Shown: in pieces, positions 25,646-30,686 of the stretch
Position numbering within the stretch: position 1 is the first letter of the stretch
Layout of the letters: each line of letters starts with the position of its first letter
Assembly: GCF_003711225.1 (NCBI RefSeq)
Contig: NZ_CP031030.1
Location: 2,666,001 to 2,730,000, forward strand
Reading direction: 5' to 3'
Length of the DNA: 64,000 nt
Source: Runella sp. SP2
Lineage (GTDB): Bacteria > Bacteroidota > Bacteroidia > Cytophagales > Spirosomataceae
The notes under the pieces: generated by a model
Databases searched by the model: none
What the model saw: the letters and a program-made list of their open reading frames with translations, nothing else
What the model was told of the DNA's origin: nothing
Translations under genes and position numbers: made by a program

Positions 25646-26984
25646 TGTTGTACGCTTTAAAGTTAGGTACGCTCAAACAGACATTTAGTTTGATTGGTTT
25701 TTTTGTTTTGAAAATACGGTCATATTTTTGATTCTATCATCAGTAAGACAGTTATCGGCAATATTTTTGATAATTTGAGTGGAGTTCGAGATTTGCCACT
25801 TCAAGGTATCTGGCTTGAATTTAAGTTGGACAAATTGGTGAGCAAATTCTTTTCCTACCCTAATCGTTTGTCCGAAATGCGTAATTTGTCCTACTGATGA
25901 TACTTTTCGAGTGTAGATTTTTTTTGCAATAAATTCATGAACTCTCTTTGAATCAAAGTCTTTACTTGAAAATACGCGTTGTTTAGTAATTAACTCAGGG
26001 AAAGCCATCGCCCTGGTTTTTCCCTCCAGCCGAGTTACTGGATACAGCTGTCGTTGAATATGAATTTGGGCATCTAGCTTGGCTTGTAATTCTTGTAAAC
26101 AACGGCAAGCTTGCACTTCTGCCCAGCGTTGAGTGGTATCTTGCATTTTCTCAACGCGATTATTCATCTGTGGACAATAAGGTTTATTCCAAGTCAAATC
26201 AATATCGTGAGCGATAAGCCACAGCGCTAAAGGCGGAGTAGGTGCCCCAGCAGGACTTCCGAATGGCTCGCCATTATCTACTCTAAAACAACCTGCTTTT
26301 CCCCATTTGTTGAAAACCTCAATAAGTTTTTGCCGTATTTGGTCAATGGGCACTTGATTGATTCGGGCATAGGGGGAAAACGGGTGCTTCCAGACAAGCT
26401 CCACTTTTTTCATCCACAATGGTCAAATAACAAGCTGATTGACCATTTTCTAAGCTTAATCGTTCTTTGGCATCTACCTGCCAGATGTTATGAACCTGTG
26501 TTGATTGCCCAATTTTGGGTTCTAATTTTTGGGAACGTGGTTTGCTCATATGAGCTGACAAAAACCAACGTTGAATCGTGCGTACATGAACCACCTGAGA
26601 GCAACCATAGCGATTGACCAGGTGCATATGAATCAAGGGGCTTCCCCAATTTGGATGTAAACGTTTTAGCCAAAGAGCTCCTCGATAAATCACATCGGAT
26701 CTACTGGGCGGCTTTTTGCCACAGTTCTCATATGCTGTTCGTAAATTTGATTGGGGAGTTTTTTGGTGTTTATGCCATAAGTTTCGCAGGGTAGCATAGG
26801 GAACACCTAAGTGTTCACTAATATATTTTAGTGTTTTACCTGAGGCTTTTAACTCCAGTAATGACTGCCGTATCGCTGTATTGGTCGCTTGTCCCATCGG
26901 TTGTTGCTTGTATGAGCGTATATCAAAAAACAAAAGTACTTAACTTCTTGCCGCTATAAATACTTAACTTTAAGACGTACAGCA
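25646..26984 (-). mobile_element. Insertion sequence, IS481-like, 1339 bp
   Basis: The ends are imperfect inverted repeats of about 24 bases (left TGTTGTACGCTTTAAAGTTA, right complement TGCTGTACGTCTTAAAGTTA), beginning TG and ending CA. They are flanked by a 4-base direct repeat AAGT at 25642-25645 and 26985-26988. It holds one transposase in two overlapping frames. Family assignment is from the helix-turn-helix plus rve/DDE layout. It interrupts palindrome copy 3, between the Doc gene and leuS. Confidence 0.85.
25685..26897 (-). pseudogene. IS transposase (DDE/rve integrase fold), frameshifted
   Basis: Two overlapping frames make one protein of about 403 aa. The first (from MGQATNTAIRQ at 26897) has an N-terminal helix-turn-helix and the first catalytic Asp in IWQVDAKERL. 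The second has the second Asp in FRVDNGEPFG, the likely catalytic Glu in NNRVEKMQD, and a C-terminal beta domain. Joining needs a +1 shift in a C5 run (complement of 26372-26376): ...EAPVFP / YARINQVPID... One base less would restore a single frame. Either the element is dead, or it uses rare +1 frameshifting; a sequencing error is also possible. Confidence 0.8.
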
Positions 26985-27015: not shown

Positions 27016-29844
27016 TTACAAAACGACGTTTACAATCCGTTTTGGAACGACTACCACTTTTTTAGGCGCTTTGCCTTCCAACCATTTTTGAACCGTATCG
27101 TTGGCCAATACACTTTGTTCGATGTCTTCTTTTGACATATCGACAGGGAAAGCGAGGTTAGCGCGAACTTTACCATTGATTTGGATAGGATACTCAAACG
27201 AACTTTCTACCAAATACTTAGGCTCAAACACAGGGAATGGAGCGGTGGTCAATGTTCCTGCTTCGTTGCCTAATGCCGTCCAAAGTTCTTCGGTGATGTG
27301 AGGCGCATACGGCGACAACAAAATGACCATTTCTTTCAAGATGGCTTTTTTGTGGCACTTCAAATCGCTCAATTCGTTGACCCCAATCATGAACGTAGAA
27401 ACAACTGTGTTGAACGAATAACGCTCAATGTCTTCCTCCACGCGCTTGATGGTGCGGTGCAATACCTTCAATTCGTCGGCCGTAGGTTCGGCATCCACCA
27501 ATTTTGATTTACCTGTTTGGTCTTCAAAGAACAAGCGCCAAAATTTACGCAAGAAGTTCGACGTTCCGCTAATGCCGTTGGTATTCCACGGTTTGGCGTC
27601 GGTCAATGGCCCCAAAAACATTTCGTACATCCGCAATGTATCAGCACCGTATTTGTCAACAATCGTGTCAGGGTTTACGACGTTGTACTTCGATTTTGAC
27701 ATTTTTTCTACTTCCCAGCCGCAAACGTATTTGCCATCCTCCAAAATAAACTCCGCATTGGCAAAATCTTCTCGCCAATTTTTGAAGGCTTCCGTATCCA
27801 AAACATCGTTTTCTACCATATTTACATCAACGTGCAATTTGGTTGTCTCATACTGGTCTTTCAAGCCAAAGCTTACAAAAACGGGTTTTGCGTTATCACT
27901 TGACTTCAATCGATACACAAAATTACTTCGTCCCTGAATCATTCCTTGGTTCACCAACTTCGCCGCAAATTCTTCGTGAGGAACCAAGCCCAAGTCTTTC
28001 AAGAACTTGTTCCAAAAACGGCTGTACAACAAGTGCCCCGTAGCGTGTTCGGAGCCACCCAAGTAGAAGTCGATGCGCTGCCAGTAGTCGATGGCCTCTT
28101 TAGAAGCAAATGCCTCGTTGTTTTGAGGATCCATGTAGCGGTACCAATACCACGACGAGCCCGCCCAACCTGGCATGGTGCTGAGTTCCAGCCCCCAACC
28201 CCCAATGGGGGCTTCTGAGTTGACTCCCCCATTGGGGGCAGGGGGGCTATATTTCCATCCTTCCGCGCGGCCTAGTGGCGGTTCTCCCGTTTCGGTGGGA
28301 AGGTATTTGTCAATTTTGGGCAATTCTAATGGCAAATCTGCCTCATCAATCAAGTAAGGAACACCGTCTTTGAAATAAGCAGGTACAGGTTCGCCCCAAT
28401 AACGCTGGCGACTAAACACGGCATTGCGCAAGCGGTATTGTACCTTACCCTTACCCAATTTACGTTCTTCCAACCACTTGATAAGTGTGTCAGTCGCTTC
28501 TTGGTAAGTCATGCCGTTGATGATACCCGAGTTGATGTAGTGTCCTTCTTTGGTATTATCGGCCTGTTGGTCAGTGTCTTTTTGGGTATCCAAAATCGGG
28601 ATAATGGGCAAACCGAAATTCGTTGCAAAGTTCCAGTCGCGCTGATCGCCCGAGGGAACCCCCATGACGGCACCCGTCCCGTATCCAGCCAAAACATAAT
28701 CGGCCAAATAAATAGGTACTTTTTCACCGCTGAACGGATTGATACAGTAACTTCCCGTGAACACGCCTGACACTTTCTTTTCGGCCATACGATCCACTTC
28801 GCTGCGGCTGGCTGCCCACTTGATGTAAGCTTCTACGTCGGCTTTTTGGGCAACGGTTGTTAGTTCTGTCGCCCATTCGTGCTCAGGGGCTAACACCATG
28901 AAACTAACGCCGTAAATAGTATCGACGCGAGTCGTAAATACTTCAATCAATTTATCCTGACCCTCAACGGCAAACTTTACCGATGCCCCTTGTGAGCGGC
29001 CAATCCAGTTGCGTTGTTGTTCTTTTAATGGTTCAGGCCAGTCGATTGTATCTAGCCCATTTAACAAACGGTCGGCATAGGCAGTGATGCGCATCGCCCA
29101 CTGTTTCATCAATTTACGCTCCACAGGAAAACCACCACGTTCCGATACCCCGTCTTTCACTTCGTCGTTTGAAAGCACCGTTCCTAAGCCTGGGCACCAG
29201 TTCACAAACGATTCTTCGGGAAACGTAAAGCGGTATTTCAACAACACCAATTGCTGTTCTTTTTCGCTCATGGCGTTCCACTCTTCCGCACTAAATTCCG
29301 TTACGTCCTCGTCGCAAACGGCATTCACCGCTGCCGAACCACCTTGCGCAAATTGCTCCACCAAATGGCTAATTGGCAATGCCTTGTCGGCCGTACGGTC
29401 GTAGTAGTGGTTAAACAACTGCATAAAAATCCACTGCGTCCACTTGTAATAATTAGGGTCGGAAGTACGAATCTTACGGCTCCAATCGTAGCTAAACCCA
29501 ATATTTTTTAGCTGAGAAATGAACGTATTGATATTTTGCTCGGTCGTGATGGCTGGGTGTTGCCCCGTTTGAATCGCGTACTGCTCGGCGGGCAATCCAA
29601 AGCTATCAAAACCCATTGGGTGCAACACATTGAACCCTTTGAGTCTTTTATATCGCGAAATAATGTCAGAAGCAATGTAGCCCAGTGGGTGCCCTACGTG
29701 CAGACCCGCTCCCGAAGGATACGGAAACATGTCGAGGACATAATACTTAGGCTTACTTGGGTCGATTTCAGTCCTGTAAGTTTGGTTTTCCTCCCAAAAC
29801 TTCTGCCATTTTTTTTCGATTTCGCGGTGATTGTATTCGGTCAT
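27016..29844 (-). CDS. leuS: Leucyl-tRNA synthetase with an in-frame palindromic insertion
   Basis: A 942-aa class I synthetase charging tRNA-Leu. Motifs are HVGHPLGY (HIGH), the editing domain with [32 protein letters not shown], and [14 protein letters not shown] (KMSKS). Near residue 550, between AEGWKYS and LELSTMPGW, lie about 20 residues ([18 protein letters not shown]) that match no normal LeuS segment known to me. They are coded by a C/G palindrome at 28190-28248. All catalytic motifs are intact on both sides, so the enzyme should work. Its start faces kdsB across 62 bases. Confidence 0.97.
28190..28248. repeat. C/G-rich palindromic element inside leuS
   Basis: The arms start AGCCCCCAACCCCCAATGGG and, on the other strand, AGCCCCCCTGCCCCCAATGG. 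Each arm contains CCCCCAATGGGGG. The element is read through in frame in leuS. Its close relative lies at 30158-30223 inside kdsB. Confidence 0.85.
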
Positions 29845-29869
29845 AATCGTTTGTACTGTGAATTTTCCG

Positions 29870-29877
29870 CAAAATTA
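29870..29877 (-). promoter_or_regulatory. -7 promoter element for leuS
   Basis: On the minus strand this is TAATTTTG, a TAnnTTTG match 26 bases upstream of the leuS ATG. Confidence 0.5.
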
Positions 29878-29906
29878 GTGTATTTAGCGACGAAAAACTA
29901 TTGATT

Positions 29907-30686
29907 ATGATTATTGGAATTATACCCGCGCGTTATGGCTCAACGCGCTACCCAGGAAAACCCCTCATCGACATCAAAGGAAAAACGATGATTCAACGGG
30001 TGTATGAGCAAGCTTCAAAAGCAAAATGCCTCACCGACGTAATCGTCGCAACCGACGATGCTCGCATCTTGGAACACGTAGAATCCTTTGGTGGTAAGGC
30101 TGTTATGACTCATCCCGACCACCCAAGTGGCACAGATCGGTGCTGGGAAGCCATTCAAGCCCCCTGGCCCCCAATGGGGGAACAATTAACTCCTCCCCCA
30201 TCGGGGGAGGCTGGGAGGGGGCTATACATCATCAATATTCAAGGTGATGAACCTTTTGTGGCTCCAGAGCAAATCGACGAACTTGGGACAATGCTGGATG
30301 GTTCCGTGGAATTAGCTTCTCAAATGATTCCTGTGACCGATGCAGAGTTATTATTTGATATTGGGGAAGCGAAAGTGATTATCAACGAGCAATTCGAAGC
30401 CATCTATTTTAGCCGTCAAGTCATCCCTTATTTAAAAGGAATTGACCCGCAAGAGTGGCACAAAAATCATACCTACTACCGACAAGTGGGAATGTATGCC
30501 TACCGCGCTGATATTTTGGAGAAAATCACCCGTTTGCCCGTGTCGCCGCTCGAAAAAGCCGAATCATTGGAGCAACTTCGTTGGTTGCAAAACGGCTTCA
30601 AAATCAAAATGGGGCTTACGACCTACGAAAGTCATTGCATCGATACCCCCGAAGACGTGGAGAAAGTCTTACATTTCATTCAATAA
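29907..30686 (+). CDS. kdsB: 3-deoxy-manno-octulosonate cytidylyltransferase with an in-frame palindromic insertion
   Basis: KdsB activates Kdo with CTP to CMP-Kdo for lipopolysaccharide core synthesis in the cytoplasm. The 259-aa protein shows IIPARYGSTRYPGKPL, VATDDARI, HPSGTDRC, INIQGDEP and YFSRQVIPY. Between DRCWEAIQ and YIINIQGDEP there are about 22 extra residues (APWPPMGEQLTPPPSGEAG...) coded by a palindrome at 30158-30223, making this region longer than in E. coli KdsB. The conserved motifs on both sides are intact. ATG at 29907 gives the canonical MIIGIIPAR start; a TTG two codons earlier is less likely. corA follows after 5 bases. Confidence 0.96.
   Translation: MIIGIIPARYGSTRYPGKPLIDIKGKTMIQRVYEQASKAKCLTDVIVATDDARILEHVESFGGKAVMTHPDHPSGTDRCWEAIQAPWPPMGEQLTPPPSGEAGRGLYIINIQGDEPFVAPEQIDELGTMLDGSVELASQMIPVTDAELLFDIGEAKVIINEQFEAIYFSRQVIPYLKGIDPQEWHKNHTYYRQVGMYAYRADILEKITRLPVSPLEKAESLEQLRWLQNGFKIKMGLTTYESHCIDTPEDVEKVLHFIQ
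30158..30223. repeat. C/G-rich palindromic element inside kdsB
   Basis: It spans 66 bases, begins AGCCCCCTGGCCCCCAATGG and ends TGGGAGGGGGCT. Its inner core CCCCCAATGGGGG and mirrored CCCCCATCGGGGG match the leuS element. The coding frame through it differs from that used in leuS. Length is a multiple of three. Confidence 0.85.

Follow-up and report, generated by a model that had tools for sequence, protein, structure and literature searches.

Palindromes read in frame within leuS and kdsB of Runella sp. SP2: probable ends or remains of a mobile DUF559 nuclease element

Two conserved genes of Runella sp. SP2, leuS and kdsB, each contain a GC-rich palindrome that lies open in the host reading frame, which raises the question of what such sequences are and by what means they could enter protein genes. 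They were noticed in a 64,000-nt stretch (hereafter, the window) on a 7.4-Mb contig of the 7.6-Mb genome, in a sequence-only reading that likened them to the Rickettsia palindromic elements (RPEs). Our analysis suggests that they are probably the ends, or the miniature or decayed remains, of a mobile DUF559 element that inserts in frame into protein genes. The observations behind this proposal are the copies in many genes, the empty and filled sites, the DUF559 domains in frame between palindromes, the bias in reading frame and, for two pairs, a nuclease under purifying selection; mobilisation by DUF559, including cutting, copying and mobilisation in trans, is what we infer from the sequences.

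Copies in leuS, kdsB and the rest of the genome

The two elements and their hosts are laid out in the window as follows.

27016..29844, minus strand: leuS, 942 codons, host of the first element
28190..28248, no strand: palindromic element of leuS, consisting of two inverted half units
28190..28211, plus strand: half unit of leuS, AGCCCCC-AA-CCCCCAATGGGGG, one base below the 23-nt consensus
28226..28248, minus strand: inverted half unit of leuS, which begins the element in the leuS reading direction (SPPAPNGG)
29907..30686, plus strand: kdsB, host of the second element, with the start codon chosen by inspection (the listed open reading frame, ORF, starts at TTG 29901)
30158..30223, no strand: palindromic element of kdsB, read QAPWPPMGEQLTPPPSGEAGRGL
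30158..30180, plus strand: half unit of kdsB, AGCCCCC-TGG-CCCCCAATGGGGG
30195..30223, minus strand: inverted half unit of kdsB, with six extra bases in the spacer, a weak match (E 8.8)

Both palindromes are present where the sequence-only reading placed them, and both inserts are open in the host frame, with the LeuS and KdsB copies read in different phases, as SPPAPNGGV and APWPPMGE respectively. A shuffle test of the 13-base core spoke against a chance origin: allowing at most one mismatch, the window holds 9 matches, whereas 100 shuffled versions averaged 0.35 and never exceeded 4, and eight of the nine correspond to the four cores of the leuS and kdsB elements. The predicted folding of the copies as RNA also held up against shuffled sequences, at -51 kcal/mol (z -5.9) for leuS and -41.6 kcal/mol (z -2.5; 1 of 200 shuffles equally good) for kdsB. 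A known Rfam family was rejected as the identity of the palindromes, since the Rfam models gave two matches across 28100-30300, both below gathering.

The inserts had been described as adding some 20 residues to each protein. They do lengthen the stretch in frame relative to homologues, but in part they replace host sequence. In LeuS, 20 residues stand for the KGEYDY of close relatives, for a net gain of 14; at the DNA level, the element plus one further base (28189) takes the place of 18 bp, the KGEYDY codons, of the empty allele. The GTDR-to-GDEP stretch of KdsB, which reads APWPPMGEQLTPPPSGE across the insert, spans 42 residues versus 30 in two relatives (G006 and G009) and 27 in several outgroups, and its alignment to PDB 1gq9 leaves gaps of 14, 2 and 1 residues.

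Comparison with relatives separates empty from filled sites. The closest named relative among the leuS matches is Runella sp. CRIBMP (87%), from which the label "Runella group" for the nearest genomes was inferred. The empty LeuS allele, WKYKGEYDYELSTMPG, occurs in G001, G006, G004, G009 and G008, whereas the own LeuS reads WKY-(20 residues)-ELSTMPG and G007 has a related insert. Nine of the 11 parsed Runella-group genes are empty and two, the own and that of G007, are filled (G005 and G012 are not among the parsed loci). Because close relatives have the empty site, the leuS copy looks recent and the empty site ancestral; similar empty alleles also occur in more distant relatives, and therefore a gain in the own lineage would be the simplest account. 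The G007 insert may represent an independent gain or an exchange. Transfer into leuS by gene conversion, with a G007-like gene as donor, was weighed and not adopted, as there is no clear tract and most windows place the own gene nearest to G001 or G006. The LeuS of G004 has a single half unit elsewhere in the gene, at a position unoccupied in G001, G006 and G009. Across 109 parsed leuS genes (of 110 loci), ten have long inserts at the site of the window's element, and nine of these contain, by eye, a G/C-rich inverted repeat whose sequence differs among genera (the Runella group, Arcicella, Fibrisoma, Arsenicibacter, Pedobacter, Mucilaginibacter and others).

The kdsB site is, to judge from its alleles, an insertion hotspot. 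G007 has a palindrome there, G008 a decayed one and G018, of another genus, a palindrome in another frame; G003, G005, G011 and G012 have other inserts, repetitive by eye, and most outgroups have a shorter linker. Repetitive-looking in-frame inserts at this site, GTTTACAGTTT-like and AGTGAGAAGTCAG-like, were seen at kdsB loci L023, L026, L029 and L030.

The element is far from confined to the window, so that one failure condition set for the mobile-element reading, absence from the rest of the genome, does not apply. The repeating unit is half of the palindrome, 23 nt long (AGCCCCC-NNN-CCCCCAATGGGGG), and occurs singly or with an inverted partner; the consensus from a 23-row alignment is AGCCCCCTAACCCCCAATGGGGG. 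Pattern searches of the own genome gave 90 forward and 90 reverse counts, with cores containing AAT or ATT scored on both strands, versus 0 for the reversed-pattern control. A model built from 23 halves, with the best 150 candidates scored, found at least 127 half-unit matches at E<=10, of which up to about ten could be due to chance given the model's rough E-values. These form 59 clusters, with 39 convergent pairs less than 150 bp apart (in one case the two members are the same core, found on each strand), two tandem neighbours and no divergent pair. Leaving aside the core matched twice, paired halves are spaced 33-109 bp start to start, and 21 of the 39 pairs span up to 70 bp; single halves also occur.

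In all, the genome holds about 88 elements, of which 50, with 20 counted as pairs, lie inside 42 ORFs when these are called with a simple picker and a margin of 25 nt is applied. Thirty of the 42 ORFs, kdsB included, were scanned, and 25 matched an NCBIfam family at E<=1e-8; hosts named in this way include valine-tRNA ligase (ValS), glycerol kinase, MiaB, SelD, PurH, KdpA, glycine dehydrogenase (GcvP), galactarate dehydratase, PcaDC and a PcaB-like enzyme. The elements outside ORFs sit between genes or at gene ends. At four loci (L086, L084, L108 and L107), half units enclose a whole intergenic spacer, from the upstream stop codon as far as the following start or a point immediately ahead of it. 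Near the C-terminus, one and the same half unit recurs in three paralogous ORFs of about 1070 codons (L110, L111 and L112, at C1:3364966, 3386181 and 3494748). A short GCGCGGCGTACCGT-like unit also splits the C-runs of several palindrome families, in the manner of one repeat nested in another (C1:6672752, 2466159, 2507879 and 4708563 of the own genome, kdsB at L020, and mnmE at L312 and L326).

A half unit with its inverted partner resembles the paired form (REPIN) of a repetitive extragenic palindromic (REP) sequence, and it is conceivable that the copies are repeats of this type moved by a Y1 transposase (the REP-associated tyrosine transposase, RAYT), with the link to DUF559 secondary. Intragenic REPs are known, according to the accessible part of PMC3733652, and Y1_Tnp is common in relatives, at 81 of 99 genomes. 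However, the own genome, the richest in copies, has one low-scoring Y1_Tnp match (26.7 bits, cut-off 23), in an array of a different repeat, and Y1_Tnp also occurs in many genomes without copies; on these grounds a RAYT is not favoured as the mobiliser. The consensus, moreover, has no GTAG or CGTC tag by eye, and we consider this explanation quite unlikely. The Y1_Tnp match itself (L017, G000:C1:3780849-3781043 and surroundings), the only one in the genome, lies in a GGTTTCTCAAAACC-type palindrome array with a RAYT/REP-like layout.

DUF559 nucleases between palindromes

A search of the own genome found two DUF559 genes, and both lie in frame inside conserved genes, between palindromes. The first is in a fused 3-oxoacid CoA-transferase gene, between a half unit of the window type and its inverse. 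The second is in mnmE, with a complete palindrome of a second type on each side (AACCTCACCC...GGGTGAGGTT); a pattern search for this second type matched 14 times genome-wide, with two of the matches at mnmE and two overlapping each other. The domain match is firm (PF04480, E 1.9e-32), the nearest PDB relative is 3hrl, "Endonuclease-Like Protein" (E 1.4e-16), and DUF559 is called Vsr-like in the available text of PMC12907096.

The same arrangement recurs among relatives. DUF559 is present in 49 of 99 related genomes, the own included, and the 75 matches outside the own genome define 74 regions, the 75th falling inside one of them. Sixty-one were taken as strong, 11 weak ones (E above 1e-20) were treated apart, and two of the 74 were dropped for short flanks. 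At 32 of the 74 loci, 25 of them strong, DUF559 shares a reading frame that extends at least 60 residues beyond it on either side, and the host was recognised at 24 of the 25 strong loci, all but L336 (16 by family scan, four by separate searches and four, L284, L286, L290 and L309, by likeness). Hosts in relatives include MetH, UvrA, LeuS, IleS, MnmE, CoA-transferase, a RecB-like helicase, a PD-(D/E)XK-domain protein and restriction-modification (RM) enzymes. Class-wide, DUF559 is found in 139 of 295 genomes, with 24 of 28 listed new loci parsed; 17 class-wide loci have frames longer than 780 codons, and all of these were recognised (LeuS 7, MetH 6, AcsA 2, IleS 1 and HsdR 1).

In five genomes (L290, L299, L306, L390 and L401), DUF559 lies exactly at the site of the window's LeuS palindrome, and in six other LeuS copies it lies ahead of the VFTTR motif, which we take to be the border of the editing domain. 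The flanks of DUF559 are palindrome-coded peptides, and no intron or intein was recognised at these loci, where no search for Hint domains was made. Two further loci stand out. In G019, a single MetH gene of 1645 codons (L281) encodes, in frame, a pair of DUF559 domains that belong to different clades. In the LeuS of G040 (L343, residues 646-737), a weak DUF559-like match (E 8.7e-10) lacks a strong repeat in its flanks; several LeuS genes carry long inserts at its position, and it is possibly a domesticated copy.

Four allele states occur at one mnmE site among the 12 Runella-group genomes whose gene was parsed (G002 had no mnmE above the search cut-off), and they can be placed in a presumed order and direction.

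Palindrome-nuclease-palindrome (4): own, G005, G007, G009
Palindrome only (2): G006, and G012 (partly decayed)
Short scar (3): G001, G004, G008
Empty (3): G003, G010, G011

The nuclease is under purifying selection in the two pairs for which the ratio of nonsynonymous to synonymous divergence (dN/dS) was computable, with values of 0.13 and 0.08; synonymous sites are saturated in the MnmE pair. In a UvrA pair, synonymous divergence is 0.14 for DUF559 versus 0.51 for the host gene, as would be expected from recent transfer. Co-conversion at UvrA was tried as an explanation and rejected: the element is less divergent at third positions than the host (Fisher 0.0004, with the host count rounded by hand), but the host flanks show no gradient.

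The association of palindromes with the nuclease was also examined against control window pairs from the same loci. Inverted repeats of score at least 14 span DUF559 at 35 of the 61 strong loci versus 0 of 244 controls; they occur at 18 of 25 inserted and 17 of 36 other strong loci, and at none of the 11 weak ones. At score 12 the figures are 40 of 61 versus 5 of 244. This test was run after one for hairpins within single flanks, and four cut-offs were tried, of which 14 is quoted. The strength of single-flank hairpins averages 10.4 beside DUF559 versus 6.8 in controls, and a cut-off of 13 marks 15 of 61 loci, in either flank, versus 4 of 244 controls.

End type tracks nuclease clade, as does host site for MnmE, IleS, UvrA and CoA-transferase. 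A tree of 68 DUF559 domains clusters by host site (17 changes versus 27.6 when shuffled; 0 of 200 shuffles), and the copies of each of these four hosts lie on one side of a branch, with support of 100/99 for the MnmE clade; CoA-transferase copies fall within the MetH-type clade, and MetH hosts arise in two changes on the tree. The window-type ends, AGCCCCC/GGGGGCT, are found in four of five members of the MetH/CoA-transferase clade (the fifth, L300, has the left end) versus one of 71 others, namely L311 in G066, a genome with 13 half units. Copy number follows the same line: at least ten half units occur in four of five genomes with this cognate clade versus six of 94 without it (p 0.0003), and the own genome is the richest of the 99, with at least 81 in this per-genome count. 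The cognate nuclease is therefore associated with high copy number, yet is not needed for it today.

These patterns bear on a second explanation, in which no dedicated enzyme is involved: template switching and recombination between copies would spread the repeats, and DUF559 would merely land in or near palindromes. The very variable spacing of halves (33-109 bp), the single halves and the pairs that enclose an entire intergenic spacer would all fit. Such a process would not readily account for a nuclease clade that follows end type and several host sites, for flank-spanning repeats so rare in controls (0 and 5 of 244 at scores 14 and 12) or for a lone half unit at a new position in the LeuS of G004, and we regard it as unlikely.

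Translation and a proposed mechanism

The sequence-only reading held that the palindrome is open in more than one frame. The common TAA spacer does leave two frames per half open, but one sense frame is used almost alone. Sense half units in ORFs are in the SPLTPNGG phase in 26 of 32 cases, with five in the phase closed by the common spacer and one in the PPNPQWG frame; the two always-open frames are thus used 26 versus 1 (p 4e-7 against equal use). Antisense halves are in the PPLGVRGL phase in 25 of 39 cases, with 8 and 6 in the other phases. These counts cover 71 in-ORF half units, three of them from near-identical paralogues, and when matches that are off register by 1-2 bases are reset by eye, the sense count is unchanged and the antisense count falls to about 22 of 39. 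The keeping of frame by the 71 is itself no evidence, because the set was selected by open frame. The bias among frames points to selection on a flexible peptide, and therefore to translation of the inserts.

Alternatively, the inserts might be removed after transcription, by RNA splicing or by ribosome bypassing of the kind exemplified by yeast mitochondrial byps, or after translation in an intein-like manner, so that the mature protein lacks them. The very stable RNA hairpins and the essential nature of the host proteins speak for removal, and homing-type nucleases usually reside in splicing elements. Removal would not, however, require the strong peptide-frame bias, and the single half unit of G004, unable to form a long hairpin, is nevertheless tolerated in LeuS; we therefore hold this to be very improbable.

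The preferred account remains a mobile DUF559 element, the full form of which would consist of a palindromic end, a DUF559 nuclease (Vsr-like, of PD-(D/E)XK type) and a second palindromic end. The nuclease would cut a target, either a conserved site in a homing-like manner or palindromic DNA itself, and repair of the break would copy in the palindrome-flanked cassette or a single half unit, with the loss of a few host bases. The ribosome would then read straight through the element as an extra loop or domain of the conserved host protein. Since the ends open in a Ser/Pro/Thr/Asn/Gly-rich frame and insertion into a tolerant loop would leave the host gene alive, no splicing would be needed. Nuclease-free copies could afterwards be retained, be multiplied in trans or decay until a short scar is left.

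Several observations weigh against this account. No target-site duplication was seen by eye, and neither movement, cutting nor the protein of an element was observed. Copies in PurH and GcvP lie in loops that are of similar length in PDB relatives, and comparison with an empty homologue covers a minority of the in-gene copies. Flank-spanning repeats of score at least 14 are missing from 26 of the 61 strong loci, and class-wide 9 of 24 loci reach that score and 15 do not. LeuS and RM hosts form no single DUF559 clade, in a tree whose columns are few for its rows. Of the ten genomes with at least ten copies, six have assemblies in which the cognate nuclease clade is missing, and a genome that does have the clade holds just two copies. 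Synonymous divergence in the CoA-transferase pair is 1.02 versus 1.35 for the host, so that the element is not clearly younger than its host, and antisense halves are fairly often in the second frame, which is closed with the common spacer.

Relation to known mobile elements

The comparison with RPEs was apt as regards behaviour (many copies, empty sites, in-frame inserts and frame bias) and failed as regards membership. RPEs occur in 19 reading frames, and the gmk product carrying one is translated and active, according to the accessible part of PMC2229807. Like RPEs and the coding palindromes of Wolbachia, the present elements are palindromic, numerous and in frame inside unrelated conserved ORFs (here 50 of 88 elements, in 42 ORFs). 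In contrast, RPEs are, as far as the available accounts go, Rickettsia-specific and about 105-146 bp long, whereas these are elements of Bacteroidota with 23-nt halves and a consensus of their own (RPE sequences were not compared), and here a candidate autonomous partner, DUF559, lies between the same ends. That match moves the nearest comparison from RPEs towards an autonomous/non-autonomous pair. Miniature inverted-repeat transposable elements (MITEs; Correia, RUP and others) are such non-autonomous inverted-repeat elements, mobilised in trans (review PMC2229807, in its accessible portion). They differ from the present elements, for which no target duplication was seen and a Vsr-like nuclease is proposed as partner in place of an insertion-sequence transposase.

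REPs share the short GC-rich palindromic unit, single or as an inverted pair. They are tagged and often RAYT-associated, as stated in the available portion of PMC3733652, whereas the present copies have no GTAG/CGTC tag by eye, no RAYT beside those examined and 50 of 88 copies in ORFs. The available text of PMC12350094 names EDxHD/Vsr as a family of homing nucleases and places distant relatives of it in group II introns of phages. The likeness extends to a Vsr-like nuclease, insertion at conserved sites of core genes, empty and filled alleles (mnmE) and, in part, one nuclease clade per site: this holds for MnmE, IleS, UvrA and CoA-transferase, not for LeuS and RM hosts, with MetH hosts in two changes. 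The difference is that the nuclease domain here is unspliced, in frame and flanked by coding palindromes, with homing as a prediction.

In the literature searched, mostly outside subscription journals, no account was found that links DUF559 to palindromes or describes its insertion in frame. To our knowledge, an unspliced, protein-embedded nuclease with coding palindromic ends has no known analogue, although each half of the system has one, and no mobiliser of coding palindromes is known to have been established since the Rickettsia work. We lean towards the view that these are an undescribed mobile class, widespread in Bacteroidia, in which unspliced DUF559 homing-type nucleases reside in essential proteins within translated palindromic bounds and seed in-frame miniature ends. 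Homing nucleases are generally considered to depend on introns, inteins or intergenic locations if their hosts are to come to no harm; the nuclease here seems instead to persist through translation as part of the host protein. DUF559 is thus a candidate mobiliser for coding palindromes, which would explain odd inserts in the core proteins of a large phylum and, if the account is true, would mean that loops in LeuS, IleS, MetH, MnmE, UvrA and other core proteins have been repeatedly reshaped.

Finally, a 196-codon ORF adjoining leuS in the window (26343-26933, minus strand) has by eye the look of a truncated insertion-sequence transposase, with a helix-turn-helix and an integrase-like start.

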